Assembly: GCA_029204225.1 (NCBI GenBank)
Contig: CM055100.1
Span: 25,117,106-25,181,105, forward strand
Length of the DNA stretch: 64,000 bases
Direction of reading: 5' to 3'
Source: Diphasiastrum complanatum
Taxonomy: Eukaryota; Streptophyta; Lycopodiopsida; Lycopodiales; Lycopodiaceae
Part shown: positions 4,479-62,500 of the stretch, in pieces
How the letters are laid out: every line of letters starts with the position of its first letter
Position numbering within the stretch: the stretch's first letter is position 1
Program-made: the position numbers and the translations under genes
Notes under the pieces: model-generated
What the model was told of the DNA's origin: nothing
Seen by the model: only the letters and a program-made list of their open reading frames with translations
The model's database searches: none

Positions 4479-5078
4479 TGGTATCAGAGCTTGTGTTTCA
4501 GGTTATGAAGGAGGAAATCAGATCTATCAATGATTTGGTGAAGATATCAAGTCTAGAGCATGCTAGAGAGGATTCTACACCAAAATCAGATTTTTTGCTT
4601 TTGTAGATTGGATCTTTTGTAGATTAAAACACTAAATAGGTCAATATACTTGTTAAATTCTGTTTTTTGAATTCACATGCTGGATTTGGCCGATTTTTGG
4701 ATCACTGGTTCAGCCTAAGTGGTGGCTTATAGATTGCATATCAAATTTTCAGCATTTGCATGTAGATTTGGAATAGTCAATTTTTTGTAATTTTGTCAAA
4801 ACCCTAATTTTGATTGGATCTCTAGATAGTGAGGTTTCTGGACTTCATTTAAGTGTGTTTCAATCTTAGGAAGTGGCAAAAGTCATTAGATTGAGGATAG
4901 ATCATAGGTTGATCAAGATTCCATGATTCTATGTGTTGATTTGTTTGGATAAGTGCTAGAAGAGAATTTGTGAGATAGTTTCAAATGTTGGTGATTTCTT
5001 TTGAAAGCATTTTTTGTTGTTAAAAGGAGTGCTTTGTGCATTGAAACAGGTTGAAAGAGAAGATCAGGTCATTGCTAC
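4479..5078 (+). other. Copia A primer binding site and untranslated leader
   Basis: TGGTATCAGAGC at 4479-4490 directly follows the 5' LTR and matches the 3' end of plant initiator Met-tRNA, the usual copia primer. The next 588 bases up to the gag ATG at 5079 hold no ORF of note. Confidence 0.92.
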
Positions 5079-8000
5079 ATGGCAACCTCAATTGGAGTCA
5101 TGTTGGAAGCCAATGATAGGCTTACCTCAAGTAACTATTCATTATGGAAAGTGAGGATGGAGTTACTTCTTGAGATGAATGATGTTTTGGATATTGTTGT
5201 AGGTTTGGAGGAGAGACCAGCAACACAACAAGATCAATTGAGGTATGACAAGAGGGCCAAGAAGGCTCTACACATGATAAAGATGAATGTTACCAATGAA
5301 CTTCTCAAGGAAGTTGGTAAGTGCACATCATCTTTGGAAGCTTGGAATTCATTGAAGAAGCTTTATGAATCCAAGTCTACTTCTAGAGTGTTGACTCTAA
5401 GAAGGCAAATCTTTTCTTGTTTGCAAAAGAATGAAGAAAGTCGAAGTACTTTTGTTTTGAGAATGAAAGCATTGAATGATGAGTTAGCTTGCATAGATGA
5501 AAGCATTAAGGAAGGAGAGCTTATTCAAGTGATTCTTAATGGCTTGTTGGATGCTCATGCTAACATTGTTCAAAGTATTGCTATTCAAAAGACTTTTCCA
5601 AGTTTGATGGATCTTCAAGAGATCTTGATCAATGATGAATATAGGCTTCAAGCAAGAGGTGGATCTACATCGACACTTCAAGAGGGTGCTATGTTCACAA
5701 AGGGCAAATTCAAGGGCAAAACCAAAAGCAAGTGGTCTAAAGGGCAAGATCAAGTGGATGCTTCTTCAAGTGGCAAAAAGAAGAATAGATCAAAGCTCAA
5801 GTGCTTCTATTGTGGCATCAAAGGACACTTTGCAAGTGAGTGCTACAAGAAGAAGACAGATCAAAGAGACAAGCAAGGTAATCTTACTCTTGATGAGGAT
5901 GGTTTGGATGTGCAAGATGCAAATGATGATGCTTTTGTGATGTCTTCATGTATGCTTGCTAATGATGGAGATCTAAATCGTTGGTGGATTGATAGTGGAG
6001 CAAGTTCACACATGACCTTTCACAAAGAGTATTCACTTCTTTGTTGGCATATGGAGATGGCAAGAGGGTGATCTACACGGCCAATGATGGTGAGTGTGCA
6101 ATCAAAGGAATTGGCACAATTCCTATTTCTCTCTCTACAAATAGGAATGTTCATTTGGAGGATGTCTTGTTTATTCCATCTATTACCAAGAATTTGCTTA
6201 GTGTGAGTCAAATGCTAAGTAAGGGCCTCAAGGTTTAGTTTGATGGAGATGCTTGTTTGATCAAAAGGAAGGATGTCTTGATTGGAAAAGGTAAAAGGCA
6301 AGGGAAGTTGTTCAAACCTGATGCTTGTGTTATTGCTAACCAAGTTGGATGTGTTGCAAGGGAGCAAATTTCTATTCAAGAGGTTTGGCACAAAAGGATG
6401 GGACACCTCAACTTCAAGTCATTGGAGGTAATGGCAAGGAAGAAGGTTGTGATTGGTCTTCCAAGTTCCTTAAATAATGACAAGCATGTTTGTGAGTCTT
6501 GTGCTTTGTCTAAGTCACATAGACTACCTTATACTAGATCTATTTCTAAATCTACAAAGCCTTTTCAACTTGTACATTCGGATATTCATGGATTTACTAC
6601 AATTAGCAATAGTGGAGCTAAGATGTATGTAACATTCATTGATGATTTTAGTAGATTTTGTTAGATCTATCTACTAAAGAGCAAGGATGAAGTGTATGAT
6701 GTCTTTGTCAAGTTCAAGAATGCAAGGGAGAACCAATTTTCCACAAAGATCAAGTGTTTGAGAGGTGACAATGGTGGTGAGTACATATCTAGCAAGTTCA
6801 AGGCCTTTTGTGATGAGCATGGAATCAAGAGGGAATATTCAACATCAAGGACCCCACAACAAAATGGAGTGGCTGAAAGGAAGAATAGGACTTTATGTGA
6901 AAGTGCTAAAGCTATGAGGTTAAGTGCTGATCTTGACAAACAATATTGAGATCAAGCTTTGTTGTGTGCCAATTTCTTGTGCAATAGGTGGCCGAGTGCT
7001 AGTTTGGATGGAAGGACACCTTTTGAGATGCTATTCAAGAGGAGGCCGAGTGTCAACTTTCTAAGAACCTTTGGACGCACATGCTATGTCGACATTACTC
7101 TTGATGATAGGACCAAGGAGGATCCATCTTCAAGAAGAGGTGGGATATAGTGAGGTGAATAAAGCCTACAAGGTTTACATTCCTTCTACTAACAAAGTGA
7201 TTGTTGGTAGAGATGTCATTTTTTATGAGGGAAACATTCCAAAGGTGTCTTCAAGCATGATTGATGGTAAAGTAGATGGTTCTAACATTCTTGATGTTGA
7301 TGAGAAGGATCCTACTTTGGATGGTGGTGATGATGGACCTTCATCAAGTCAAAAGCCAAGGAGAACATCAAGAGAAAGACAAGTATCTTCAAGGCTCACA
7401 TATGATCAAGAGGGTAAGCAAGTAGTTTCTGGAAATTATGTTGCTTTCCTAACCTCTTTGGATGATCCTACAAGTGTAGATCAAGCAAGGAAAGAAGAGG
7501 AGTGGATCCAAGCAATAGATCTTGAGTATCAAGCTCTTATGAAGAATGGAACATGGAGATTGGTGGAGTTGCCTAAGGACAAAAAAGCTATTGGATGCAA
7601 ATGGATCTTCAAGGTGAAGACAAACCAAGATGGATCTATCAACAAGTACAAGGCAAGGTTAGTGGCAAAAGGATATGCTCAACAACAAGGAATTGACTAT
7701 GATGAGACCTTTGCACCCGTGGCAAAGATGGTAAGCATTCGAGTTATCATTTCACTTGCTACACTTTATGGATGGGATCTATGGCAAATGGACATTTCAA
7801 ATGCATTCTTGAATGGTGATCTTGAGGAGGAAGTATACATGGAGCAACCCGAGAGCTACATCTCATCAACAAAGCCAAATCATGTGTGTCTTCTACAAAA
7901 GAGTTTGTATGGCCTTAAGCAAGCACCAAGGAGTTGGTATGCTAAGCTTAACACTTTTTTACTCTCTCAAGGCTTTGTTATGAGTGAGTATGATCATTCA

Positions 8001-9023
8001 CTTTATTATAGGTTTGCTGGAAATGATGTTACCATCTTGCTAATCTATGTGGATGATATCATCTTGAGTGGTGGAGGCAATCAAGATGTGGAGGATATCA
8101 AGAATGCTCTTAAGAAGGAGTTTGAGGTGCATGATCTTGGTAATTTGCATTACATATTAGGAATAGAAGTCATAAGATCTTCTCAATCTACTTTCATTTG
8201 TCAAGAGAAGTATGCTAATTCTATTCTAGAAAGATTTCATATGGTAGATACAAAAGCTATTGATACACCTATGGAGTCTCATGTAAAGCTTACTATAAGA
8301 GGTAATGAAAGATCCTTCAAGGACATTACTCTCTATAGAAAGCTAGTTGATTCACTCATCTATCTAACCATTACTAGACCTGATCTAAGCTATTGTGTTG
8401 GAAGATTGAGTCAATTCATGCAAGATCCTAGTGAGGAGCATTGGAAGCTAGGAAAGCGAGTTTTGAGGTACATCATTTGAACTCGAGATTTTGGCGTATT
8501 GTATGAGGGATCATCACCTAATCTTTTTGGATTTTCAGATTCAAACTATGATGGAGATATAATGGATAGGAAATCCATTAGTTCTTATTGTATTTTCATA
8601 GGTAATGGAGCTATATCATGGATGTCAAAGAAACAAGCCACTATCTCATTGTCATCTAGTGAGGCCGAGTACAAAGCTCTTACACATTGCACAAAGGAGA
8701 TGGTATGGATCAAGAGGATGATCAAGGATCTTCACTTGCTGGATTTTTCATAGAGCCCAATCATCTTTTGTGACAATCAATCAGCCCAAAGAATGGCATC
8801 CAATCCTATCTTTCATGCTAGGAGCAAGCATATTGAGATACAATATCATTTTGTGAGGGAGCGAGTCATTGCAAAGGAGGTGGAGCTTCAACATGTGTCT
8901 TCAAGGGAATGTGTAGCTGATATCTTCACCAAAGCATTGGGAAAAGACTTGTTCATGAAGCATAGGACTTCACTTGGAGTATTATCAAAGTCTATGCTAA
9001 AACTAGTTGAAGAGGGAGTGTGA
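5079..9023 (+). pseudogene. Copia A gag-pol polyprotein (disabled)
   Basis: Begins MATSIGVMLEANDRLTSSNY, the usual copia gag start with SLWKVRMELLL. A zinc knuckle CFYCGIKGHFASEC is near 5,800-5,845. Protease WWIDSGASSHM follows near 5,980. Integrase has the pre-integrase HKRMGHLNF, VHSDIHG, GDNGGEY and TPQQNGVAERKNRTL. RT has QMDISNAFLNG and YVDD (near 8,046-8,060). RNase H has STSEAEY-type and RSKHIEIQYHFVRE blocks. Breaks: frameshift near 6,030; stops at 6236, 6662, 6947, 8478 and 8751; a second, compensating frameshift near 7,135. The stop TGA (9021-9023) lies inside the 3' LTR start. The longest open piece covers the RT (7,143-8,480). Confidence 0.95.
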
Positions 9024-9673: not shown

Positions 9674-12633
9674 TACATCCGTGAAGATGTGTGTGCAGCA
9701 TCAACATCTGACACAATGAGGTGATCCTAGACTCATGAGCCACCTCACACTTCGTGACATGAAGATGAATAATGTCTGATTTCAGAAGTGCGAATCCTTC
9801 AAGATTCATAGTTCTTGGAGATGGATCTACACATCGAGTAAACGATATTGGTTCACTATGGCTCAACACCAACGACAAAGACAGACGGCTCGAAGACATT
9901 CTGTTCGTGCCTACTCTGCAACAAGACTTGCTTTCTGTAGTAAGGATAGTAGATGCAGGGATGCGTGTGACGTTTTCTGACGAAGAATGCAACGTGGTTG
10001 ATGCCAGTACCAGTACATTGATCGCTCAAGGTAGAAGGAAATAAAACCTATATCATTTGAAGGTACGCCTACCTACAGATCAGGTGCATCAGACTCATGA
10101 TGACTCGCCAGACACTTTGTGGCACAAAAGTCTCTGCCAGATGAAATCAATGGCACTTTATCAAGCAAGCCATCATGGAGCAATAACAGGGGTCAGCATC
10201 TTGAATGCGACTAGTTCGGCTACCTGTGATGCATGTTTGAAGGGCAAGATGTCATGCACTCCATTCATCAAAGACTCCTACAGAACGACCAAGATTCTGG
10301 GGTTACTGCATTCTGACATTTGTGGACCTTTCAATGTGATCTCAGTAGGAGGTTCAAAATATTATATAGCCTTCGTTGATGATTATAGCAGATTTGCTAG
10401 AGTGTATTTCATTCAGAAGCACTTGATAAATTCACAGAATATGTTAATTGGTTGAAAGATGTACAAGCAACAAAGTGAAGTAGATCAGGACAGATAAAGG
10501 TGGCGAATACATCTCGAATCGCTTCATTGATTTCTGCAAAGATTGTGGCATCATTCAAAGAAGGACTGCAGCCTACACGCCGCAGCACAGATGCATGATG
10601 GCCTACTTGAAGGCTCCAAGGGTACTATGGACTAAAGCAGTAGCTACAATCGCATACATCCAGAACATGATAGGTAAGTCAGGTGTCTCTCACACGACAC
10701 CACATGAGCTATGGTGGGGTAGAAAGCCCAATCTGTCTCACGTCAGAATCTTTGGTTGTGCAGCTTATGCACATATTTCTGATAAGCTTTGAAAGAAGCT
10801 TGATGAGAAAGCCGAGCAGGAATTTCTGGTAGGTTATGACAACAATTCGTCATACTACAGAGTCTACATGCCAGACACGAACATTGTGAAAATAGTGAGG
10901 GATGTTAGATTTGATGAGAGCAAGACAATGGCCAATGATGATCCTATCAGCTATGAAGTTCTGAAGAGACAATACTATGACCTACCGCCAATGACAGAGG
11001 GAGTAGAGGACGAACACAAAAACGAAGAGTTTTGAGTCATCTCCCATTCGAACGACGAATATGAAGAAGAAAGATTCAAGAGACAGCCTGCTGCCACAGT
11101 TCCTGTAAACCAAGATGGTTCCGGACCGAGCAGAGCAGACAAAGGAAAAGACATTGCTATCCCAGGAGGATTTCCCAGAAGGTCGACTAGACCACAAAGA
11201 GCGCCAACAAGATATGTGTCAGACAGCTTAGCTTCCACATCAGAAGAGTTCTGCGGATTCAGTGACGAACCACAGATTTTTGAGGAAGCGATTGAAAGTC
11301 CAAAAAAGGACAAATGGATCCAAGCCATGAACGAAGAGATGGAGTCCATGAGGAAGAACCAGGTATGGACGTTGCAACCATTACCACATAAGCGCAAGAC
11401 TATCAAATACAAATGGGTTTTCAAACTCAAATATGGACCAGATGAGAATGTTATGAAGTACAAGGCAAGATTGGTAGCAAAGGAATTCTCTCAGAGATAC
11501 GGTATTGACTACTCTGAAACCTTCTCTCCTGTCATCAAACATTCGTCCCTACAACTATTATTTGCATATGTAGCAGCTTATGACCTCAGGATCCATGTTG
11601 TGGACGAGAAGACAATCTTCTTGCATGGCAAACTAGATGAAGAGATCTATATGGATCAACCCCCAGGATATGTCTCGAAATCACTCCCTGATTATGCATG
11701 CAGAATGCATAGAAGCATCTACGGTCTGAAACAATCAGTCCAACAATGGTACAAGAAGAAAGATCAAGCCCTAAAATCATTGGGATTCAAGCCTCTGTTG
11801 GCTGATTCCAATGTATATGTCAGAGTTACAGATGGGCTGATCATCATCGTGGATGTATATGTGGATGACACTCTGATACTTTGTAGGAGTGAGCAGCTGA
11901 TTGTTGAAGTGAAGACAGACATCTCGAAATATTTTGAGATAGTGGATATGGGAGAAGCCAGGTGTCACCTAGGCTTGCAAATTGAAAGGGACTATGAGGG
12001 AGGTAAGTTATACCTTCACCAGTCCAGATAAACCCAGAAGATCCTAGAAGACTTTGGGATGCTGAACTGCAAAGGACCGAATACTCCAATGCTCGTAGGG
12101 ATGGTGCTGACAAATGGTGATTGTCCGAAGACTAAGGAAGAGAGAGAACATATGCAGCTCACACCTTACAGGAAGCTGATAATGTATCTTGCTGACAACA
12201 CACGTCATGATATTGCTTATGCAGTATTCAAGATCAGCCAATTCAGAATGAGTCATCAAGAAGCAGACCGTTGTAGCCCAGTCATTATGCGAAGCAGAGT
12301 ACGTTGCAGCAGCGAAGATGGCCAACGAGATAATCTGGCTAAGGTAGTTCCTGGACGAATTGGGTGAAACAAGGAACGAGCCTTTGATTTTGCAGATGGA
12401 TAACACCTCTGCAATACATCTAACGAAAGATCCCGTGTTTCATTTCAGAACAAAACACATTGTGATCAAGTACCACTTGTTCATGGATCTAATTGAAAGA
12501 AGATGTTGCAGACCGCCTTCATCGGAATAAAAGACATGGTTGCTGACATCTTCAACAAAGCCCTGGATAAAGGACTCTTTGAGAGATAGAGGAGCAGTCT
12601 CGGGATCGTAAAGCTATCATGCTTTGAGAGGGA
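9674..12633 (+). pseudogene. Copia B protease, integrase, RT and RNase H (decayed)
   Basis: Continues the gag cut at 3,828. Protease tail: FIVLGDGSTHRVNDIGS, LEDILFVPTLQQDLLSV (9,772-10,044). Integrase: LWHKSLCQMKS, CDACLKGKMS, LLHSDICGPF, VDDYSRFARV, then TPQH joined directly to RCMMAYLKAPRVLW. The NGVAERKNRT-type segment kept in the relative at 63.6 kb is deleted in frame, about 15 codons. RT (11,216-12,031): KYKARLVAKEFSQRYGIDY, YVDDTLI. Then a RNase H relic: MDNTSAIHLTKDPVFHFRTKH. Several stops and frameshifts. It is less similar to A, C and C2 than they are to each other. Confidence 0.93.
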
Positions 12634-20941: not shown

Positions 20942-23900
20942 AACATGCTTCCAAGGTGGAACCAGTTGCCAAGGTTTCAATTGAAAAACCTGAGACAAAA
21001 TTCTACCGTCCCAAATGCCCACACTATCCATGGGATCTTTGTGAGGAGGAGACTATCTTTCAAATTGATGACGAGATCCTCCATGACATACCAACTGTCT
21101 CTCATCCACACACATCTTCACCACCAAAACCTCAACCACGTGGTCATACTATGAGAGAGAAAAATGAGAAAACCACTTCAAATTCAACCATCGGGTGACC
21201 TCACCATTGTTTGGGAAGTTTATGAGATTGCCTCTAGTCCTACACCAGTCCCCGAAAAATTCCAAGCACCATCTCAGCAAGAGATAGGCAAGGCTCCCCT
21301 CGAATCTCCAGCCCATGATGTTCCTGCATCCTTTAAGGACTATACGATCGAGGATGTCACAATCCAATTACCCCAAGCTCAACGTGAGCCAACTGGTAAT
21401 TCACCCTACAAAGGCCCTGCACAAACCATAACCCTTTCCCTGAGTGAGCCAAATAGAACCAACGAATATCTTGTCCATGTCGGAGCTCATCTCAATCGCG
21501 AATAACGCAGATAGCTTGAAAAGCTTCTGCAAAAATATTGACATGTCTTTGCCTGGACCTGTAAAGACATGAAAGGCATCTCACCCCAAGTAGTTGTGCA
21601 TCGTATCCCGCTTAAACCGGGTGCGAGACCCACTGCAAGTTGTCCATACAGATGTAATCCCATCTATAAGGCCAAGATCAAAGAAGAACTACAACATCTC
21701 TTAGATGCGGGATTTATCTATGAAATTGAGCATACTGAGTGGGCTCCCCAATTGTCATCGTCCCCAAGAAAAATGAAAAACTCCGCATCTGTATCGATTT
21801 TTAGAAACTTAACGCCGTCACTGAACGTGATCATTTTCCATTACCTTTCGGAGAATCCATCTTATAAAATCTAGCAGGAGATGAGGCTTACTCCTTCTTA
21901 GATGGCTTTAGCGGATACAATATGATCCTAATCGCTGAAGAAGATCAACACAAAATTGCGTTTGCCACAGAATAGGGAACCTTCTACTGGAAAGTCATGC
22001 CCTTTGGTCTCTGCAATGCTCCTAGCACCTTCCAACGTGTTATGCAAGCAGCCTTTTCTCAGCAGATGGGCGATACCTTAGAAGTTTACTTGGATGATTT
22101 AGGAGCACATTCCGAATAAATACGCCATCTCTCTGTGCTTAAATTTTTTTTTATCCAATGTCAATGCTTCGACATCTCTCTTAATCCTGAAAAATGCCAG
22201 ATTTGGGTAACCCATGGTATTGTGTTAGGACATATTATCTCACAAAATGGCATTGCCACTAACCCTGAAAAGATCCTTATCATTCAAAATCTACCGGAAC
22301 CGCGTACAATACATGAAGTTTACTCCTTCCTTGGCCACGCCAACTACTATCGGTGCTTTATTTTCGATTTCACTAACAAAGCACGCTTAATCTACATAGT
22401 AGTTGTAGTTCCCAAATGGACGGATGAACAACCCGTCACCTTTAATCAACTCAAGGAAGCCCTTACCAATGGACCCATCCTCCGGGCTCCTGATTATTCT
22501 AAAGAATTCCATGTGCATACTGATGCATCCAAGTATGCCATTGGAGCAGTGCTCACCCAACCGGGAGAATTTAAAAAGGACTACCCAATTCATTTTCTTA
22601 GTCGACAATTGATACTTGCTGAAGTCAATTATACCACTACCGAACGCGAAGCCTTGGCAATGGTATATGCGGTTCAGAAGTTTCGCCATTATCTTCTAGG
22701 GAAAGTCTTTGTGTTCTTCACTGATCATCAAACACTATTGTATCTCATCAACAAGATATGCACCACAGGCCGTATTACTAGATGGATCCTATTATTGCAA
22801 GAATTTGAGTCTGGAATCATGGTTCGTAAGGGAGTTCAGCATTTTTTAGCAGACCATCTATCCCGAATCCCTAACCTCCCTACCGAATATCGAACTTCAG
22901 GGCAGATGGATCCTTCCTTCTCTGAACCTGAACAACGTGCGTTGGTCCTCAAAACTAAACCTTATACGTTAATTGCAGGACAACTCTACAAGCAAGGGTT
23001 AGATGGAATTATCCGACGATGTCTTACTGAAGGAGAAATACACTCTGTAATTTCCCTCACTCATGAAGGTATTGGTGCAGGCTGCTAAAAAAATCCTCTT
23101 GGCCGGTTTTTGATGGCCAACACTCTTCAAGGATACGCACAATTACAGTAAGACTTGTGATGTCTGCCAATGCACGAAACACTTTCAAAAGCCAAACTAC
23201 ATGCCTTTACAACCCGTAACCACTGATCAAGCTTTCCATAAATGGGAAATTGATTATGTCGGACCTATTACTCCTGTTGCTCGACATACACAATCTCGTT
23301 ACATCATAGTAGCTATGGACTATTGCACCAAATGGGTTGAAGCAAGAGCTGTTCACAATGCTGACGCTCGTTCTACCGCCAAATTTCTCTATGAACAGGT
23401 TATAGTTCGGTTCAGATGTCCTCTAGAGCTACACATAGGGGTATACATTTCCTTAACTCTGTCATAGCAGATATTTTTTCCAAATTTTTGGTACATCGCA
23501 AAAGTTCCCCATACTATCCATGCTGCAATGGCCAGGGAGAATCCACTGATAAAATCCTATGTGGAAGTCTGGAATTCTCACCAAAACTGTCGAATTCAGC
23601 TGATCTGATTGAGAACTCAAACTCCATGCTGCTCTCTGGGCTTATCGCACCACCCCGAAGCGAGCTACAGGCTTAACCCCTTTCCAGCTCACATATGGCC
23701 AAGAAGCCGTTATGCGTGTGGAATTCCATATCCCCTCCCTTCAAGTAGCCTTTAACCTTGAGATTGATACTCCTCAGAATCTAGCAAATAGGTTATTCTA
23801 TCTGGAGCAACTTTGTGAAACACAAAGGATCGGCATCCATGCTCAACAAGTCCACAAACGACAACAAAAATCATGGCATGATCGATCATTGAAACTTAGA

Positions 23901-27133: not shown

Positions 27134-30100
27134 CTAGCTTGGTTCAATCATTGCTTTACTAATCACTCCAAGTGATGATCTGAACTTCATAAAAGGTGTC
27201 TTTTGAAGTGGTTTAGTAAGTAGATCAGCTACACATTCATTGCTTGGAACATGCTCCAAAGCAATCTCCTTGGCTTGCACCATTTCTCTCACAAAGTGAT
27301 GGCATATCTCAATGTGCTTAGATCTTGCATGGAAGATTGGGTTAGATGCAAGGTGTTGGGATGATATATTGTCATTGTAGATGATTGGTGCCTCCTCTGA
27401 ATCCATGATCTTTAGTTCCACCAATAATCTCTTGATCCAAAGTACCTCCTTTGTAGTGGTTGTCAAAGCTTTGTACTCGGCCTCGGTTGAAGATAGAGAT
27501 ATAGTTTCTTGTTTTTTTGAAAGCCATGAAACCACACCTTCTCCTATGAAAGTTGAATAGGCACTTGTTGATTTCCTATCCCTCTTGTCCCCTGCAAAAT
27601 CTGAATCACTAAATGCATGAAGGTTAATCACATCTCCTCTATATAGAATCCCAAAATCCAATGTACCCGAGATGTATCTTAGAATCCTCTTAGCCTTTTT
27701 CCAATGAATATTCAATGGCTTTTGCATGGATTGGCTCAACCTACATACACTAAAGCTAAGATCTGGTCTAGTTATAGTGATCCACATTAAGGAACCTATA
27801 AGTTGCCTAAACAAAGTGATGTCCATGAAGGATCTTTCATCATCTTCATTTGGCACTTTTACATCTTGCTCCATTGGTGTGTCAACACTTTTGCATACTT
27901 CCATCTTAAACTTCTTCAAAAGACTTTGAGCATAGTTTACTTGACTTATAAAGATAAAATCAGACCCTCTAAGTACTTCTATGCCTAAGATGAAGTGAAG
28001 ACACCCTAGATCTACCATCTTGAACTCTAAGGATAGATCTATCTTGATTTTTTCAATATCATCAACACTATTTCCACTAATGATGATGTCATCTACATAA
28101 ATGAGTAAAAGTACAATACCAACATCATCAAACTTAATGTAAAGAGTGGGATCATATTCACTTTTAACAAAAGAAAGTGAAATAAGATAGCAATGTAGTC
28201 TTGAATTCCAAGATCTCGAGGCTTGCTTCAAGCCATAGATGCTTCTTTGGAGATGGCATACTTTGTTCTCCATTCCATGCTTGATGAACCCTTGTGGCTG
28301 CTCCATATAGATATCCTCTTCCAAAAAACCATTCAAGAAATCATTAGAGACATCCATTTGACATAGAATCCATCCAAAATGTGATGCAAGTGCAATGATT
28401 AGTCTTATTGTGACCATCTTGGCCACGGGTGCAAAATTTTCCTCATAGTCTATCCCTCTCTCTTGAGCATAGCCTTTTGCAACTAATCTTGATTTATGTT
28501 TGTTAACACTCCCATTTGCATTCAACTTAAGCTTGAAGACCCACTTGCATCCTATTACATTCCTTTGAGGTCTCTCAACAAGCAACCAAGTTTCATTCTC
28601 AATCAAGGCATCATACTCATCCAACATAGCTTTATACCATTCTTTGGAGTGCAATGCATCTTCAACATTAGATGGTTCTTTGAAACTAGATAAAGCATAA
28701 GAAGTGGATGAGATACCCTCAACTTGCTGTCCTTTGCCTTGATATGTGAGCCTTGATGGCTCCACTTTTGCCCTTGAAGATCTCCTTGGTGTGATAGGTG
28801 GGTTTGGTGCTTGCTCCTCCATGAGCTCCTCCTCAAAACCAAGATCTTGCTCCTCGGCCATCTTCTTCTTGATTGTTGGAGCACTTGAGCCTTCTTCAAG
28901 CATATGCATATGATGTCCATCAAAGATGACATCCCTTGAAACAACAAATTTGTTCAAGGATGGGAGATAGACTTTGTAGCCCTTGCTTGAGCTTGCATAT
29001 CCAAGCATGATCCCTCTTGTGGAAGATGGATCCTCCTTGGTTCTTGTTTCCAATGGCACATGCACATAACATATACACCCAAAAACTTTCAAGTGATTAA
29101 GATTGGGTTTCTTTCCATACAACATCTCATATGGAGTTTTGCCTTCAATTGCTTTGCAAGACACCCTATTCATCAAGTAGTTTGCACATACAAGAGACTC
29201 ACCCCAAAAGGATTTGGGCAAACAAGCATCTAATCTTAAAGCCTTAGAACATTCACATAATGTTCTATTCCTTCTTTCAGCAACTCCATTTTGTTGAGGA
29301 GTGTAAGGACAAGAAGTCTCTTTCTTGATCCCTTCCTCCTCACAAAAGGCCTTGAACTCATTGGAGATGAATTCTCCACCATTGTCACTTCTAAGAATCT
29401 TGATGCTATGATTATGATGCTTTTCCACAAACAACTTGAACTTTACAAAAGTATCAAATACTTGAGACTTGAAGGAAAGTAAGAACACCCAACAATATCT
29501 TGAGTAGTCATCAATGAAGGTTAAAAACATGGATGAACCTCCATTAGATTTGGTGCTAGCAATGTGCACATCCGAGTGTATGAGTTCAAGAGGATGAGAT
29601 GACTTTGTGATGGAGTTAGGAAACACCTTCTTATGTGCCTTGGATAAGGCACAAGCTTCACAAACCTTGTCTTCCTTCCCAATAGACCTTGGTAGGCCTA
29701 AAGCATACTCCTCCTTGATCATAGCCTCCATGGAACCCGAGTTGACATGTCCAAGTCTTTTGTGCCATAAAGTAAAGGTAGATATCTTGCTCTTCTCGGC
29801 CAACATGACAACATTAGTATCCACAAATGCATCCAGCTTATAAAGTTTGCCAATTCTAGTGCCCTTAGCCACTATCTTACCCTTCTTCTTGATGAAACAT
29901 TCATTTGAAGCAAAGTCAACATTGAAACCATTGTCTACCATTTGGCCAACACTTAGTAGATTCTTTGTTATTGTAGGAATGTACAAAACACCTTCTATGT
30001 TGATCTTTTTGGAAGATCCTAAGCAAAGGGGAATGCTACCAACTCCTTCAATCTTACAAGCTTCATCATTTGCTGTATAGATAGACTTTATAGGTCCATC

Positions 30101-30142
30101 ATAAGATAAGAGAGAAGAGAAAAACTCCCTTTTACTAGTCAT
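27134..30142 (-). CDS. Copia C pol: protease tail, integrase, reverse transcriptase, RNase H
   Basis: 1002 codons without a break from the first Met; the frame is open further up to 30,217 and there contains the protease site WWIDSGASSHM, so the true start is upstream. Integrase: LWHKRLGHVN and CEACALSKAHKK (zinc-binding HHCC), IHSDVH (first Asp), RSDNGGEF (second Asp), TPQQNGVAERRNRTL (Glu). RT: QMDVSNDFLNG (Asn-Asp for the common Asn-Ala), SIYGLKQASRSW, IYVDDIIIS. RNase H: SDSDFAGDKRDRKS, SLSSTEAEY, YNDNISSQ, RSKHIEICHHFVRE. The stop lies 14 bp before the LTR. It encodes what is needed for reverse transcription and integration, acting in gag particles and the nucleus. Confidence 0.95.
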   Translation of the reverse strand: MTSKREFFSSLLSYDGPIKSIYTANDEACKIEGVGSIPLCLGSSKKINIEGVLYIPTITKNLLSVGQMVDNGFNVDFASNECFIKKKGKIVAKGTRIGKLYKLDAFVDTNVVMLAEKSKISTFTLWHKRLGHVNSGSMEAMIKEEYALGLPRSIGKEDKVCEACALSKAHKKVFPNSITKSSHPLELIHSDVHIASTKSNGGSSMFLTFIDDYSRYCWVFLLSFKSQVFDTFVKFKLFVEKHHNHSIKILRSDNGGEFISNEFKAFCEEEGIKKETSCPYTPQQNGVAERRNRTLCECSKALRLDACLPKSFWGESLVCANYLMNRVSCKAIEGKTPYEMLYGKKPNLNHLKVFGCICYVHVPLETRTKEDPSSTRGIMLGYASSSKGYKVYLPSLNKFVVSRDVIFDGHHMHMLEEGSSAPTIKKKMAEEQDLGFEEELMEEQAPNPPITPRRSSRAKVEPSRLTYQGKGQQVEGISSTSYALSSFKEPSNVEDALHSKEWYKAMLDEYDALIENETWLLVERPQRNVIGCKWVFKLKLNANGSVNKHKSRLVAKGYAQERGIDYEENFAPVAKMVTIRLIIALASHFGWILCQMDVSNDFLNGFLEEDIYMEQPQGFIKHGMENKVCHLQRSIYGLKQASRSWNSRLHCYLISLSFVKSEYDPTLYIKFDDVGIVLLLIYVDDIIISGNSVDDIEKIKIDLSLEFKMVDLGCLHFILGIEVLRGSDFIFISQVNYAQSLLKKFKMEVCKSVDTPMEQDVKVPNEDDERSFMDITLFRQLIGSLMWITITRPDLSFSVCRLSQSMQKPLNIHWKKAKRILRYISGTLDFGILYRGDVINLHAFSDSDFAGDKRDRKSTSAYSTFIGEGVVSWLSKKQETISLSSTEAEYKALTTTTKEVLWIKRLLVELKIMDSEEAPIIYNDNISSQHLASNPIFHARSKHIEICHHFVREMVQAKEIALEHVPSNECVADLLTKPLQKTPFMKFRSSLGVISKAMIEPS

Positions 30143-31092
30143 GTGTGAACTAGCACCCGAGTCAATCCACCAAGGATCTTCTCCGTTGAAGAAAATATGG
30201 ACATCATGAGAGAGTCCTCATGTGAACTCTCCTCCTCCTCCTCTTTGCTCATGTTGGCTTGGCTTTGATCTTGCTTCCTCTTGAAGCATTCCGAGGCATA
30301 ATGCCCCATCTTGCTACAATAGTAGCACTTCACCTTTGATTTGTCCTTCTTGACTTTGGTGGTTGAGGGAGATGCCTTTGGGGGTCCTTCTTGATCCTCA
30401 AGCTTTGTAGACTTCTTGAATGTTGATCCTTTGCCTTTGGACTTGCCTTTGCCTTTGGTGAAGAGAGCTTGGTCATCTCCACCTTGGATGGAAAGCCTAT
30501 CCATCCTCTCTTGCATTTGGCTCCTTCTTGATTCCTCGACCATGAGTGTGCCTTGGAGTTCTTCAAGTATGGGTAGCTTACCCATAATTGCATATCCCTG
30601 AACCAAATTGTCAAATTCAAAGCTTAGTCCATTCAATATGAGTTGAACAAGCTCTTCATCCTTGATAGGGTCACCTATAAAGGCTAGCTCTTTGTTCAAT
30701 TCCTTTACTCTTAGGACAAAAGTATGTGCACTCTCTCCTTTCTTTTGATAGCTTCTATAGATTTGATTCTTCAAAGCTAATATTCTAGTTTGGTTCTTGG
30801 ATTCATAGACCTTTTGCAAAGTCTCCCAAGCATCTTGAGCTGAAGTGCAATCTCCTACCTCTCTTAAGAGTTCATTTGCAACATTCATTTTTATGCAATG
30901 TAGTGCAACATTGCACCTCTTGATGTATTTGGCTTTTTCTTGAGGATGAATAGGTTCACCCTCCTTACCATTTACAATTTCCATCAGATCTTGCATGATC
31001 ATGATAGATTCCATTCTAACTTTCCATATGGAATAGTTAGTTTTGTTGAGCCTTTCATTAGTATCCAAAAGATATGCATTTATAGATGTCAT
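30139..31092 (-). CDS. Copia C gag
   Basis: 317 codons starting MTSINAYLLDTNERLNKTNY, the same start pattern as A (MATSIG) and C2 (MTSMGV). The N-terminal SIWKVRMESIM and the ALHCIKMNVANELLREVGD to LVQLILNGL region form the copia gag (UBN2-type) capsid domain. A Lys/Ser-rich stretch is followed by one zinc knuckle CYYCSKMGHYASEC near residues 256-269. The last residues (EKILGGLTRVLVHT) are an out-of-frame reading of the protease site, so the frame breaks between knuckle and protease. Gag would form the particle that packages the RNA. Confidence 0.94.
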   Translation of the reverse strand: MTSINAYLLDTNERLNKTNYSIWKVRMESIMIMQDLMEIVNGKEGEPIHPQEKAKYIKRCNVALHCIKMNVANELLREVGDCTSAQDAWETLQKVYESKNQTRILALKNQIYRSYQKKGESAHTFVLRVKELNKELAFIGDPIKDEELVQLILNGLSFEFDNLVQGYAIMGKLPILEELQGTLMVEESRRSQMQERMDRLSIQGGDDQALFTKGKGKSKGKGSTFKKSTKLEDQEGPPKASPSTTKVKKDKSKVKCYYCSKMGHYASECFKRKQDQSQANMSKEEEEESSHEDSLMMSIFSSTEKILGGLTRVLVHT

Positions 31093-36150: not shown

Positions 36151-37092
36151 CTAGATACAGGAATCTATATCTTGTTGTTCTCTGACTTTGGTCATGAAAG
36201 CTACTTCATCTTCTTTTTGTTGCTGGATTGAGTGACTAATTGTAGCACTATGTGCTTGTTGTTGGAAATGTTTTTTCTTTTTGTTGTTGTACTTCAAAGT
36301 TCGGTAGTCCTTGATTTTGTGGCCAGTCCTCTTACAGTATCTGCAGAATAGTTTTTGTACTGGTTGGAATGATGAAGAACTTGAATTCGATCCTAAATCA
36401 AATTTTGGTCCAGAGTGCATGTTGCTCTTCTTGTCAATATAACCTGACTTTGTAGATCTCTTGGATCTAAACTTCTGATTTTTTGAATATAGAGCTTGAG
36501 GATCCAATCCTGAGCCTAAGGAGGATGGTGATCTTCTGATCTCCTCTTGTAGGAGCAGCAAAATTACTCTTGACAAAGTGAGGTGCTCCTGGGTAGAAAT
36601 TGCCATTGCCCAATTTTTGTAGGCTTCAGGTAGACTTGATAATAGAGTCATGAGTGCAGCAAAATCTTCTATGACTGAGCCAGTTGCAGTCATCTGTTCC
36701 ATAAGATTTTTGAATGCGTTGAGATGACTTGAAACACTTTCTACATTAGACATCCTCGGGGTGAAAAATTTCGTTCTCAAATATAACTTAGAAGTAACAT
36801 CCCTGATATCGTAGAGAGTTGCTAAGATGTCCCATGCATTCTTAGTAGTCTGAGCAGCACGTAAATGGTTGATCTGAGTATTGATGTTGAGGGTGATCAT
36901 AGCAAATGCTTTATTGTCTCTAAGTCTCCACTTGGTGATGTTGGCTGCATCACCTTCTAGTTTGAGCTCTGTGCCATCAATGATGTCCCACAGTCCTTTG
37001 GCTAGTAGTATAACCTTCATCTTGAATTTCTAGAGAGGGTACTTATCTCCATCGAGTTTGTCAATGAGACATGAACTAGATGATGGATCCAT
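36151..37092 (-). pseudogene. Copia F gag, minus strand
   Basis: The best start is the ATG at 37,092 (MDPSSSSCLIDKLDGDKYP), broken by TAG at 37,030-37,032 where a Trp is expected. It is then open for 289 codons. Typical gag phrases: LWDIIDGTELKLEG, AWDILATLYDIRDVTSKLYL, LTLLSSLPEAYKNWAMAI. The zinc knuckle CRYCKRTGHKIKDYR has lost its last Cys (Tyr), so it is C-C-H only. This is another copia lineage than A, C and C2. Confidence 0.92.
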
Positions 37093-40221: not shown

Positions 40222-43200
40222 ATGACTTCAATGGGTGTCTTTCTATTAGAAGCAAGTGAAAGATTGTCAACCTCCAATTACTCAATTTGGAAGGTTAGAA
40301 TGGAATCTGTCTTAATACTACAAGATGTGATGGATATTGTACTTGGCATTGAAGAAGAACAACAAATTTCTCAAGAAATTCCAAAGTACAAAAAGAGAGC
40401 TAGGATGGCTCTGCATTATATTAAGATGAATATCTCAAATGACATCTTAAGAGAAATTGGTGCTTGTACTAATGCCAAAGATGCTTGGGATACTCTCAAG
40501 TCTATCTATGAGGCAAAGAATACTTCTAGACTTCTAACACTAAGAAACTAAATTTTCCAAAGTGTACAGAGAAGTGATGAATGTGCTTCAACTTATGTAA
40601 TGAGAATTAAAGACCTCCATATAGAATTGTCATGCATAGGAGACTCCATTTGTTCAAGTCATACTTAATGGGTTAAAGGAGGAATATGACAACCTTGTTC
40701 AGAGTTATGCCATTCAGGAGGAGCTACCAAGTTTGGAAACACTCCAAAGTGTGCTCATTTCTGAAGAATCAAGACAAGAGTATAAACTCTTGAAAATGGA
40801 GAGACTGTCTCTCAACATTGATGGTAAAGCTCTCTTTACCGAAGACAAGCACAAGACAAGAAGTAAGAATCAACACCAATCCTCTTCAAGCAAGAACAAT
40901 CTTATTTCCAAGGAGAAAGGAGAAGAGGATGAGTCCTCTCAAGCTTCCACATCCAAGAAGAAGAAGAAAAACATCAAGTGTTTCTTTTGTGGCAAGAAGG
41001 GGCATTATGCCACCAATTGCTTCAAGAAGAAGAGTCAATTCAAGCAAGCCAACATTTCTAATGAAGAGAAGGAAGATGCTCATGCAAGTGATGGAGAGAG
41101 ATCTCTTATGGTCTCGAGTTTTTCTTCATCATCTTTCAAGAAGGATGGTTCGTGGTACATCAACAGTGGAGCTTCTTCACATATGTGTAGCTCCAAGCAT
41201 TCTTTTTCATCTATCTCACCTTATGAAGGAGCCAAGAAGTCCATCTATACAGCAAATGATCATGAGTGTGCTATTGAAGGCATAGGGACCATTCCCCTAA
41301 AGCTTTCTTCATCAAAAGTTCTTTCTCTGTCTAAAGTACTTTTTGTTCCTAAGTTAACAAAAAATCTTATTAGTGTTGGGCAATTGTTTGATAGTGGACT
41401 AGTTGTGAATTTCAATGTTGATACATGTACAATCAAGAAGCATGATGAGATCCTTGCATTTGGGTCTAGATATGGTGGAATCTACAAGCTTGATCCCAAA
41501 GAGTATGCTAACTCTTGTGATAGTGCTTTTGCTTCTCATATGTCTTTGGAGGAACTATGGCATAATTCTATGGTGTCCATGGTCAAGAAATCCAAAGCTA
41601 TTGGCTTGCCTAATCTTATCTCCAAGAATTTCAAGCCACGTGAGGCTTGTGCCATATCTAAGTCTCATAAGAAGCCTTTTTCAAAGTCATCCATCAAGAC
41701 TACACATCCATTGGAGCTCATACACTCGGATGTGCACTTCTCATCTTCAAAGAGCAAGGGTGGTGCTACTTGCTTTGTAACTTTCATTGATGATTTCACT
41801 AGATTTACTTGAGTATATCTTCTAGCTTCAAAGTCTATGGTGTTTGACTATTTCCTAAAGTTCAAAGCTCTAGTTGAAAAGCAATTTTTATACAAAATCA
41901 AGATTCTTAGAAGTGATGGAGGTGGTGAGTACACTTCCAATAAATTTCATGATTATTGTGAGCTTGAAGGCATTAAAAGGGAGTTTTCTTGTGCATATAC
42001 ACCATCTCAAAATCGGGTGGCTGAAAGAAAGAATAGAACATTGTGTGAATGTGCCAAAACCATCAAAATTGAGACATCCTTGCCAAAAGACTTCTGGGGT
42101 GAGGCTATCAATTGTTCAAACTATCTTTGCAATTCACTCCCTCCTGTTGCACTTGGAGGAAAGTCACCATATGAAGCACTTTATTTGAAGAAACCTAAGG
42201 TTGAACACCTTAGAGTATTTGGATGCATTGTCCATATTCCCTTGGAAACGAGAAAGAAGGATGATCCTTGTGCAAGCAAAGGAGTAATGGTTGGATATTC
42301 ATCCAACAAGAAAGCCTATCAAATCTACATGCTCTTTACTTCTAAAGTAATTGATAGTAGAGATGTAGTTTTTCATGAAGAAGAAAAGTCCAATCTTGGA
42401 GGGGCCGAGATCAAGCAACCTCAAAATCTATCACCTTTTGTTATTGAAGACAATCACCATATGGAGGAGTCAAGATTTGAAGATGGAAGTCCTCAGATTT
42501 TGACTCTTAGAAGATCCATGAGGGAGAGATCCGAGCCCAAGAGGCTCACTTATGATGACAAAGAAAAACAAGTGGATCTTGATTCCACTTATGCTTATTT
42601 TGTTTCTCACGAGGAGCCCAAAGATGTCCAATAAGCCCTCAATACCAAGGAGTGGTATGAGGCCATGAAGATTGAATATGATGCGTTGATCACCAACCAC
42701 ACATGGGAGCTAGTGGATCCACCACCTAACATGCATATAATTGGATGCAAGTGGGTGTTCAAGATCAACTACAATCATGATGGCTCCATCAACAAGTACA
42801 AGGCAAGATTACGTGCTAAAGGCTTTGCACAAATATATGGCCTTGACTATGAAGAAACCTTTGCTCCTATAGCAAAGATGGTGACAATAAGAATCATAAT
42901 CTCTCTTGCCTTACTTTTTAAGTGGAAATTGTTTCAACTTGATGTCTCCAACGCTTTTTTGAATGGCTATCTTGAGGAGGAGATATACATGGAATAGCCT
43001 CAAGGATTTATCAAGGATAAATCTAAGGTGTGTTTGCTATTTAGAAGTCTTTATGGCTTGAAACAAGCACCTAGATCATGGTATTCAAGACTCAACAACT
43101 TTCTACTTTCATTGCGATTTGTGCTTAGTGGCTATGATCCTTCTATGTACTTAAAGTTTGATGGTAGTAATATTGTCATTCTTCTAATCTATGTAGATGA

Positions 43201-58660: not shown

Positions 58661-58744
58661 CTGTCCTAGAGTGGAGTCACACTTGAATACACTCAGGTAG
58701 TGGAGAATATTGAAGAACTCATGGCTGAGGTAGCAACCTTGCAA

Positions 58745-58832
58745 AAGGACAAGCATGTACAGTCTGAAGACCTCAACAATACTAAGTAAAGGACAAGCAT
58801 GTACAGTCTGAAGACCTCAACAATACTAAGTT
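58745..58832. repeat. 44-bp tandem duplication
   Basis: GGACAAGCATGTACAGTCTG starts at 58,747 and 58,791; the two 44-bp copies are identical apart from the edge. They lie just after the coiled-coil-like relic. Confidence 0.9.
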
Positions 58833-59110
58833 ATCCCTTTGGTAGTGTAGAATTGTACATAGGTTGTACATTATTATATGCTTTAAATAATTTAAAATGG
58901 AAAGAGATGGAGTTTTTTTATTAGGGCCTTGGCATTTTGCAAGTTTCTTTTCTACCATCATTCAACAAAAAGATAGCACATGGTGTGCCACCCTTTTTAT
59001 GCTACTACTTCAATGTATATTATTAAGAATGTGGTTTGGTACATAGTTAAAGATCCCACTAAGTAAAAAAAAAATTCAAATTAATATATTTTTTTTGAAG
59101 CCAACTCAAG

Positions 59111-59575
59111 TAGCACGCTGGCGTGTAAGCGGCACGCCAATTTTTTTTTTTTTTTTGCAGCCAACCCAAATAGCACGCCAACGTGCTATCTGGGTTGGCT
59201 GCAAAAAAAAAATTCATTTCATATAGCACGTCGGCGTGCTATCTTAGTTGGTTGCAAAACAAATTTCTCATTTCATATAGCACGCCGACGTGCTATCTTT
59301 AAAGGCTGTAAATTTTCTTTTTAGTTGTTTTACTTAGCACGTCAGCTTACTATGTTGGGAGGTTTAAATAAATATTCCAAAATAATATTTTTACTCAAAA
59401 TTTGGTTCTTAAATGCGTCAAAATAGCTTTTCTATTTTATAATTTACTTGGCTAGCACACAACATGCTAGTCGAATCAACTCCAATATGAAATCTATTTT
59501 TTCAAAAAGTTCTTCAAAAAAACTTCATGTTTTTTAAATGAAAAATTTGCAGGCTAGCATGCCGGCATGCTAACT
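59111..59575. repeat. Array of short palindromes (TAGCACGNNNNCGTGCTA type)
   Basis: Seven inverted repeats near 59,111, 59,171, 59,223, 59,277, 59,335, 59,451 and 59,553. The second, third and fourth have perfect 8-bp arms ATAGCACG/CGTGCTAT (or one base less) around CCAA, TCGG and CCGA. The second extends to 21-bp arms (59,157-59,177 and 59,182-59,202, one mismatch), plus flanking T and A runs. The last is AGCATGCCGGCATGCT. Spacing is 52-60 bases for the first five. The spacers share TCATTTCATATAGCACG and GTTGGCTGCAAAA-like words, so this is a degenerate tandem repeat in which the palindrome is the best-kept part. Confidence 0.85.
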
Positions 59576-62500
59576 TTTACAACTTCAAGGACAATTTTTT
59601 TTAAATAAAAGTGAACTTGTATTTAGAGAATAACAAAGTCTTTTGTGATGGACTTATTTAGAATTTGATGGATAGTCACATTTTGAAGTATGCATCAAAC
59701 CATCATTCTTGTTCTTAAAATCATGTAGTGGCATAAAAAGAGTAGCACACTATCTGCTACCATTTTGTTGGAGCATGTCATGGAAGAAACTCGCAAAAAA
59801 TTTACTCACAGAATGTAAAAACCCTTTTTATTATTATGACTAGTTTAAGTATACAATATAAACTCAGTACATAGGATACACATAGCAGAACCACAAGATT
59901 AAGATGTACATAAGCAACATATCCAACTATGTTCCTATACATAAACATAGGCTATAAACTGACAGATATCCATAATTCGCATATGTTACTCACATAATCT
60001 CACTGAGAATCTTGCAACTCAGCTACAAACAAACTCTATTTCTCATGAGTAAATAACATATATGGAAATCTCTTAAGTGAATAATTCCACATCACAAGCT
60101 TTCCAACCATCTAACTCTTATTAACAAAATTCCTTCAACCAATCAGCCTACTTCATATCTTAGTGTACAAACCAAGATTAGACTAACTTATACAGACATC
60201 TTTGGACATAAGGTTAAGATTAAAACTTTATTCCTCTGATCCAATCCATAACAAAATGGTACTTGGCAACAATCAGTGAACCTTAATCTTTACCACTACT
60301 TCCCATATTCATGAATATCTCACAGCTCAATATTTCCAAAGCTCCTCTAGTTCCAAATTATTCAAAATAATCACTTAGAGAGTTCTTCTATTTCAACTAG
60401 ATAGTTCTACCTTTGCACACATATTGGATTTTTTTTCAAAAATCTATGCAACTAGCTGATTCATCAAAAAGTCTTATTCCTATCTTTTCTTCTCCCACTT
60501 TTAAAAGAAATTCCATAATTTCAATTAAAAATTTCTTAGGAGACAACATATAAGATATCAAAGATTTGAAAAAGTCAGTAATCAGTATCCAATACTATTA
60601 CACACCGGACTTTTTCCTCAAAATCATAGAATATCTTATCCTGAGTGATAGAAATATTACATCTCAATAATCAACTATCAAATAGAGATTAACACTTGGG
60701 TCTAGGAAGTCTAAACTCCATTTAATCAATTGATAACATCGATAGATTCAAAGCCATATTCACAAATCATATATGGAAGTATAATTTCATATAATCTCAA
60801 TCCAATTGTCTCATATTTAAGAAATTCTAAAAAGTAGAGGCTTAACATAAAAGAGAAATAAATTTCAGGGCTTTAAGATTTTGTAAATAATGAGATAACA
60901 TTTGGGATCAATCTATATCTCATAATTTTCCAAAATACCCAAAACAAAAAACAACGAATTTCACTATCAGTATGGCCATTACAATAATTACTAACCATTA
61001 GTCTACAAATCATTCTCACCCAAGAAATCCCCTTTGGAATTACTGATGTCCCATACCACCAGCTTTTCCTCCAAGAATCCTCTGCATCTAGATCTGTTTT
61101 GCCCAAAAAGTCAAAAAGACTAATTGGTTATCATATATCCAACTACAGGATCAGAATCACAACCAATTCCAAGAGATACATCTAATTATTGAAATCTCTC
61201 ACGTTCCTTAAGTGTTATCCAAAGATACCACTCTACATTGTTCCCCAGCATGGACGAGACGAAATGTATCGTTCAAGTATAGTTGAAATGCCATAAGTGT
61301 ATTCACTAAACCGAAAGGAACATAGATCAACAAAACCGAATATCACCCTGTCCTAGATATCCAATATCTATTTTAGAATCGCAAAAAATAACTTAATTTT
61401 TTTACAGGTTAGAATTTCTCTTGGTTGTCTCAGTTATTATAAAGAAACACTCTATAATAAGAAAAAATCCAAACTACTGGATTTATGTATGGAACACCTT
61501 TCATCTGCTTTCACTTGCAAGATCCATATCCAATTGCAAAACAGAGATGGTTCCATAAATGGATTATCTAACTTACCCCTTACTTTTCCCTTAAAATCTT
61601 TTGATTTCTTGAAATTCTAATTAACACTGGGGAAAAGGAATCCAAATTTCCAGTGGCATTTTTCTTAATTGATTCCCAATTGTTATTCTCACTTGCTATC
61701 AGTTATACTTCAGGAATTGAAAGTAGATTAAGAAGACAAATTGATTCGGTCAACCAATCATCTATCCCTCAGGCTCCAACTCTTTCCTACCTTCCAAATA
61801 TGGTTCAAGCTGAAAGCCCCAAATTTGTACTAGGAAAAAGATCAATTTGGTATCAATAGTATTTTAACTACTAATCAACCAGACAGTTTTGATTGTTCAA
61901 CTAATTAAGTGCCACACTCAATTACTAGCAAAACCCCTTATGGTTCAACATAGCAACTGTTCCAACAAGATTTAGCTATTCTTGGTCTTGATTGATCCCA
62001 AAAAAAAAACAAGAAATGCTCCATAACTGACAAATTCCAAAATCTTCAAGTAAAAGTGAAATGTATTGTGATCTAACAAAATCGACTGATTTCAACTCAG
62101 TAAGATCATTCACTTTTTAGGTAATTTATGTTGGATCAGTAACCAACGAATCTGAACAAATCCAAAACTGCCATGGTTCTTTCAAAATATTATGTAACTG
62201 GGATTTTCAAATTTCGTTCAATATGGACCTAAACTGTGAAAATCGATCTAAAGCATTGACTTGGCAGTTTCATAGTCACTATCACATTTTTGACAGGATT
62301 TTGAAACATCCGGCATGCATCAAACATGACATGCAGTGATTTCTTAAAAAAATCAGATTTTTACGTAAATTGCCTAGAAACTGGAAAATCGGCTTTTTGA
62401 ACTAGAATTGCTAAAAATATATTCATGCATGAAATTTCTCTGATCAATCTACTGAACACCCATGTACCATGTATCCAAACATTCATACAGGTCTATTCAT

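Follow-up and report, generated by a model that had tools for sequence, protein, structure and literature searches.

A row of palindromes forms the interior of a dispersed, non-coding transposon of probable Mutator-like type

The window analysed here, by which we mean the whole 64-kb stretch of Diphasiastrum complanatum DNA, has 13 open reading frames of at least 200 amino acids, and seven of the ten that were scanned gave retrotransposon-type matches; Copia-type and RT_RNaseH-type retrotransposon frames lie at 5055-8480, 11036-12031, 22120-23088, 27134-30217, 36151-37029 and 40640-41812. The feature under study is a row of seven palindromic sites that start between 59111 and 59555 (Table 1), as many as the original prediction had listed. 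The start-to-start distances of the first five (60, 53, 54 and 57 bases) agree with the predicted 52-60 bases or so, and the predicted core, TAGCACG-4 nt-CGTGCTA, was recovered as well: the pattern TAGCACGNNNNCGTGCTA, with up to two mismatches, has six matches in the window, against a mean expectation of 0.00. The site at 59453, which makes the seventh, is one base short in the window copy. The single long-armed site with T/A runs is that at 59171, whose arms, when these runs are counted in, measure 31 bases and are 97% complementary. The statement that the arms are complementary was worded loosely; the sites at 59111, 59335 and 59453 are imperfect in the window copy. Two further palindromes, absent from the first list, occupy the terminal inverted repeats (TIRs), the left one having its site at 58974 and the right one at 59743.

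The row is contained in an element of 901 bp (58924-59824; orientation arbitrary) that begins with GGGCC, ends with AACCC and is bordered at both ends by the identical 9-mer TTTTTATTA, a 9-bp target-site duplication (TSD). Inverted repeats at 58935-59017 and 59716-59798, which are 76% complementary, flank the palindromes, and the TIRs of the window copy are about 95-110 bp long. Because the element has TIRs and no stop-to-stop frame of at least 200 amino acids overlaps 58924-59824, it is a non-autonomous DNA transposon, and its 9-bp TSD points to membership of the Mutator-like superfamily, for which TSDs of 9-11 bp are described (PMC3310237). Both hallmarks of Mutator-like elements (MULEs), a TSD of 9-11 bp and TIRs, are thus present, and the element is also short, non-coding and present in many copies, so that the suggestion to look for a MITE proved apt. 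The view that no element in the window explains the array has to be given up: the array occupies the interior of a cut-and-paste transposon that is common and non-coding, and is no new kind of genomic array. It represents a new family within a known kind of transposon, a feature that is real but ordinary. Unlike ends are common among these elements, one end being GGGCCTTGGCATTTTG or similar and the other GGGTTTTGACATTCTG or GGGTTTTGACAATCTG (58924 and 59824 in the window; also L020, L045 and L049). Immediately outside the transposon lies an exact 44-bp tandem duplication (58744-58787 and 58788-58831).

Table 1. Positions in the window of the transposon, its parts and its palindromic sites
Feature	Position	Strand	Basis or remark
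TSD, left copy, TTTTTATTA	58915..58923	.	9 bp identical at both ends
Whole non-autonomous Mutator-like element, 901 bp	58924..59824	+ (arbitrary)	end sequences, TSD, dispersed copies
Left TIR, inner limit approximate	58924..59017	+	58935-59017 pairs with 59716-59798
Left-TIR palindrome, TAGCACATGGTGTGCCA	58974..58990	+	same 17-mer in 16 of 24 copies
Internal palindrome 1	59111..59128	.	2 mismatches in window copy; family form TAGCACGCCGGCGTGCTA
53-bp tandem repeat, 2.4 copies	59170..59299	+	Tandem Repeats Finder, 84% matches; sets spacing of palindromes 2-4
Internal palindrome 2	59171..59188	.	centre of long inverted repeat 59147-59212
Internal palindrome 3	59224..59241	.	TAGCACGNNNNCGTGCTA pattern match
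Internal palindrome 4	59278..59295	.	TAGCACGNNNNCGTGCTA pattern match
Internal palindrome 5	59335..59352	.	imperfect in family; right arm CTTACTA
Internal palindrome 6	59453..59469	.	imperfect; one base short in window copy
Internal palindrome 7	59555..59572	.	family right arm CATGCTA; left arm usually TAGCACG or TAGCACA
Right TIR, inner limit approximate	59716..59824	-	pairs with left TIR
Right-TIR palindrome, mutated in window	59743..59759	.	family form TAGCACACCATGTGCTA in 18 of 24 copies
TSD, right copy, TTTTTATTA	59825..59833	.	9 bp identical at both ends

Copies of the element are dispersed through the genome (1.74 Gb in 5176 contigs), where a first-look search returned 2073 candidates, 40 of which were scored. 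Thirty copies were examined as a family sample, and after six near-identical duplicates had been left out, the 24 non-redundant copies served for the counts of TSDs, TIR palindromes, arm changes, CpG changes and family spacings (n = 44). A perfect TSD of at least 9 bp was found in 11 of the 24, compared with 1 of 552 control pairings in which the two flanks were drawn from different copies; no perfect TSD of that length was found in the other 13. Six pairs of copies at different places in the assembly (L006/L007, L014/L019, L015/L017, L027/L028, L031/L032 and L033/L034) are 98.2-99.9% identical and share their TSD wherever one was found, for which reason we read them as likely duplicated segments or unmerged assembly haplotypes. 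The original prediction had also asked whether the array belongs to a satellite or a Helitron. A short tandem repeat, the 53-bp unit, is indeed present, but it comprises only 2.4 units and lies inside dispersed TIR elements, and single dispersed copies with TIRs and TSDs speak against both of these identities, as does the confinement of the sites to the element side of the TIR at 30 loci (up to two mismatches; see below). Both were set aside, and we consider a satellite, a Helitron or any other type of element extremely unlikely here.

TRGCACACCATGTGCTA, a form of the TIR palindrome, has 987 exact copies genome-wide. In a sample chosen blind to the palindrome, namely the first 30 of the 128 loci that match a 22-base TIR word exactly, the 1300 bp on the element side contained a palindrome with up to two mismatches at 27 of the 30 loci (59 sites in 39 kb), compared with none in 39 kb on the outer side and a shuffled-sequence expectation of 0.0; the remaining three loci had no inside site within two mismatches. 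A looser pattern allowing three mismatches gave one outer-side match each in L063 and L079 (two of the 30 loci). At most 27 of these 30 loci are independent, given that L073 and L077 have the same sequence, as do L080 and L084, and that L065 and L066 are two ends of one element; L077 and L084 were left out of the TIR alignment (28 loci) and kept in the count of inside and outside sites. In the TIR consensus of the 28 loci the palindrome begins at position 67, and mean pairwise identity is 0.754 in the palindrome, 0.635 in the preceding spacer and 0.465 in the 17 columns that follow; the corresponding values for 11 diverged representatives are 0.604, 0.597 and 0.307. These figures, taken from the aligned sequences, indicate that the palindrome is a piece of the conserved TIR, yet one that does not stand out from the adjoining spacer.

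Among 20 loci chosen for a perfect palindrome, L035, L049, L053 and L054 gave no BLAST match to the window element (E 1e-5), and L037, L038, L039, L042 and L045 matched only about 40 bp of its end. L045 and L049 belong to a different family and have perfect 9-bp duplications; by eye, each has a pair of sites in its interior and a third close to the right end, with a left-end site that is well defined in L049 but degenerate in L045. The palindrome therefore belongs to the element and occurs also in related elements whose interiors cannot be aligned by BLAST. Among the titles and abstract openings listed by literature searches, none describes the motif.

The regularity of the array has a simple explanation. 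The 53-54-bp spacing of the central sites results from the 53-bp tandem repeat (Table 1), and helical phasing is not needed to account for it. Within the family, 40 of the 44 spacings below 70 bp fall in 53-58 bp, and we put the peak at 54 down to shared ancestry; at other loci, spacings below 100 bp lie between 35 and 73 bp. Helical phasing was considered for the 44 close spacings and rejected, as the resultants for periods of 10, 10.5 and 11 (0.52, 0.55 and 0.58) do not single out the helical repeat.

The original prediction also claimed paired changes in the arms, and this is not borne out by the family. When seven orthologous sites were compared in register across 24 copies, 1135 pair cells could be scored (41 more were gapped), of which 1013 were unchanged, 119 were changed on one side and three on both sides, with one of the three still paired; independent change of the two arms would give 4.4 two-sided cells. 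A count with columns set by the window copy, in which the right arm of 59111 is one base out of register and 59453 is omitted, gave 969 cells with 100 one-sided and five two-sided changes, one of them paired, against 4.7 expected. Orthologous sites in dispersed copies thus change without a pairing constraint. The last site, at 59555, had been taken to carry compensating changes in both arms, but only its left arm differs from the family consensus, which over the 24 copies reads TAGCACG..CATGCTA and is mismatched already; the window copy departs from it by a single C-to-T change at a CpG in the left arm, and this one change is what makes the window site matched.

The suggested check of arm covariation was made genome-wide. 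By exact matching, CACG/CGTG arms occur at 742 sites, CATG/CATG arms at 232 and mixed arms at 706, where independence predicts about 714, 204 and 763, respectively (calculated by hand and uncorrected for relatedness), so that matched arms are in slight excess in the pooled set but show no excess of pairing at orthologous sites. Arms kept alike by template-switch repair or gene conversion could produce such an excess; it is small, however, and the pooling of old and young sites, or of sites of differing family, would also give it. Together with the lack of pairing excess at orthologous sites, this makes arm conversion very unlikely in our judgement.

Another explanation is that the palindromes serve as hairpins, either as DNA cruciforms or as stem-loops of a transcript from which small RNAs would be made. 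Long inverted repeats are natural sources of small RNAs, and folding is strong: site 2 folds as DNA at -34.4 kcal/mol (z -11.6), and the whole element as RNA has a fold z of -13.3 (20 shuffles). Although the stems would fold well, the one-sided arm changes make such a role less likely, and the paired changes that keep the stem of a small-RNA hairpin locus are not in excess in the 1135 cells. The commonest centre of the sites, CCGG, is moreover self-complementary, so that no loop is kept, and an Rfam search of 58800-59950 returned 24 weak matches without one at gathering score, the best being MIR535 with 32.1 bits against 64. We therefore judge a hairpin function improbable.

The centre bases also bear on what the original site was. 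Of 70 distinct perfect-arm sites from the fetched loci, 21 have CCGG as their central four bases, 43 have a variant that differs from it by transitions only, and six have neither. Since the centres are mostly CCGG or its transition variants, the ancestral site looks like a perfect 18-bp palindrome close to TAGCACGCCGGCGTGCTA with CCGG in the middle. Loop bases do vary, as had been noted, but mostly as transition variants at the centre of an 18-bp palindrome, and the variation looks mostly like cytosine decay. Within the family of the window element, CpG loss is lower inside the palindromes than outside: with site columns that follow the window copy, two sites being one base off at one edge, CpG positions were changed in 13.0% of cells in the sites (103/793) and in 20.6% elsewhere in the element (75/364), whereas non-CpG positions were changed in 6.0% and 5.4%, respectively. 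The palindromes carry about two thirds of the family's CpG cells. The locus illustrates cleanly how a palindrome that decays at CpG can give the appearance of covariation, and the apparent mystery is gone: the row of palindromes with seeming compensation makes up a transposon interior in which decay is one-sided.

An autonomous partner was sought and not found, by means of PF10551 profile matches, the reading of five loci and proximity checks by eye. The MULE-transposase profile PF10551 has 32 matches genome-wide; the five loci read (4 kb each, one of them extended by 3 kb to either side) contained no palindrome and no convincing TIR. A search with the profile PF03108 was uninformative, as its own controls went unmatched. 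These five loci, L085-L089, hold genes with a MULE transposase domain in several reading frames, and two of the genes also match a ZSWIM RNaseH-like family; they may represent a different MULE family or have been domesticated by the host. Two TIR-like matches with five edits in L090 were discounted, for each falls in one copy of a direct repeat whose copies are spaced about 973 bp and include the gene's own sequence, and L091 contains no inverted partner. Inspection by eye showed no PF10551 place within 20 kb of any of the 100 TIR places listed (of 128) or of any of the palindromes listed; among the 100 of 987 TIR palindromes listed, the nearest to a PF10551 place is about 25 kb away, on C2, and no two form an opposite-end pair 2-10 kb apart. 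Frames of L078, the one TIR-sampled locus scanned, matched no Pfam family.

What, then, is the palindrome for? We consider it probable that the array, as the interior of a MULE-type MITE, presents a putative two-fold symmetric site for a dimeric, transposon-encoded protein, and by analogy the palindrome is most likely a candidate binding site for the protein of an autonomous relative. This reading draws on the facts that the palindrome lies in the TIR and persists from one family to another, and on the analogous systems of MURA, VANC21 and Muta1. A two-fold symmetric protein site had been among the original suggestions; it is plausible in view of the recurrence of the palindrome in the TIRs and interiors of diverged elements, but the evidence then offered for it, paired changes, is absent. 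A dimer of the transposase, or of an anti-silencing helper of the VANC kind, might bind the palindrome; tandem duplication would multiply the internal palindromes, and the extra sites may help the element to recruit the protein and hence to be copied, after which inserted copies would decay neutrally, with transitions at CpG the fastest.

The chief rival of the binding-site reading is that the palindromes have no function: a palindrome of the ancestral TIR would have spread inward by tandem and inverted duplication and been copied along with the element. The 53-bp unit does repeat as a block, and the family multiplied although its consensus has imperfect palindromes at three of the seven internal sites. 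Two results given above fit such passengers and count against a binding site, namely that dispersed copies show, outside CpG, no stronger conservation in the sites than elsewhere in the element, and that in diverged TIRs the palindrome does not exceed the adjoining spacer in conservation. Against passengers speaks the persistence of the motif in elements that cannot be aligned internally with the window element, and at one place in the TIR. We regard the passenger explanation as possible but rather unlikely. Beyond the binding site itself, we tentatively entertain a wider proposal, which we think has a small chance of being right: a set of MULE families may have multiplied the recognition site of a dimeric protein internally, so placing about two thirds of the element's CpG in it, with non-autonomous copies outcompeting others for that protein and CpG methylation perhaps reading out its binding. 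The array would then be the palindromic equivalent of the motif arrays in VANDAL elements. If the palindrome is a binding site, copies with differing numbers of sites would form a natural series for the study of transposition or of resistance to silencing.

Among known systems, the element comes closest to the MULEs. Plant MULEs of the maize Mu/MuDR type share with it TSDs of 9-11 bp, TIRs and non-autonomous copies with differing interiors; their TIRs, typically 100-500 bp long, are reported to hold a site of about 32 bp that is bound by the transposase MURA, and extra TIR copies have been suggested to raise recognition by the transposase (PMC3310237). Here, by contrast, the candidate site is an 18-bp palindrome that is repeated in the interior of the element in addition to its place in the TIRs, which are about 95-110 bp in the window copy, and none of the five transposase loci read is tied to it. 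Muta1 and other MULEs of Aedes aegypti have TSDs of 8-9 bp, subterminal tandem repeats and over 300 putative non-autonomous derivatives, with a palindromic terminal motif in Muta1 (PMC5225508); the likeness lies in the TSDs, the repeats and the many derivatives, whereas the 12-bp repeats of Muta1 are in tandem within the TIR, 3-4 bp apart, and our 18-bp palindromes are about 54 bp apart, mostly internal, in an element known from non-autonomous copies alone. In the VANDAL MULEs of Arabidopsis, too, a short motif is repeated in non-coding parts, multiplied by tandem repeats and different between related families; the YAGTATTAY motifs of VANC21 stand in one orientation and are bound by an element-encoded protein (PMC5735166, PMC10398659), whereas the motif here is palindromic, is present in the TIRs as well and has a binding protein that is putative. 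Finally, the short interrupted repeat cassettes (SIRC) of Arabidopsis resemble our array in having short repeats separated by diverse sequence, for which an origin from MITE interiors has been proposed; their repeats are direct and their TIRs are proposed to have been lost (PMC10342631), whereas the repeats described here are palindromes that still lie between TIRs and a target-site duplication.
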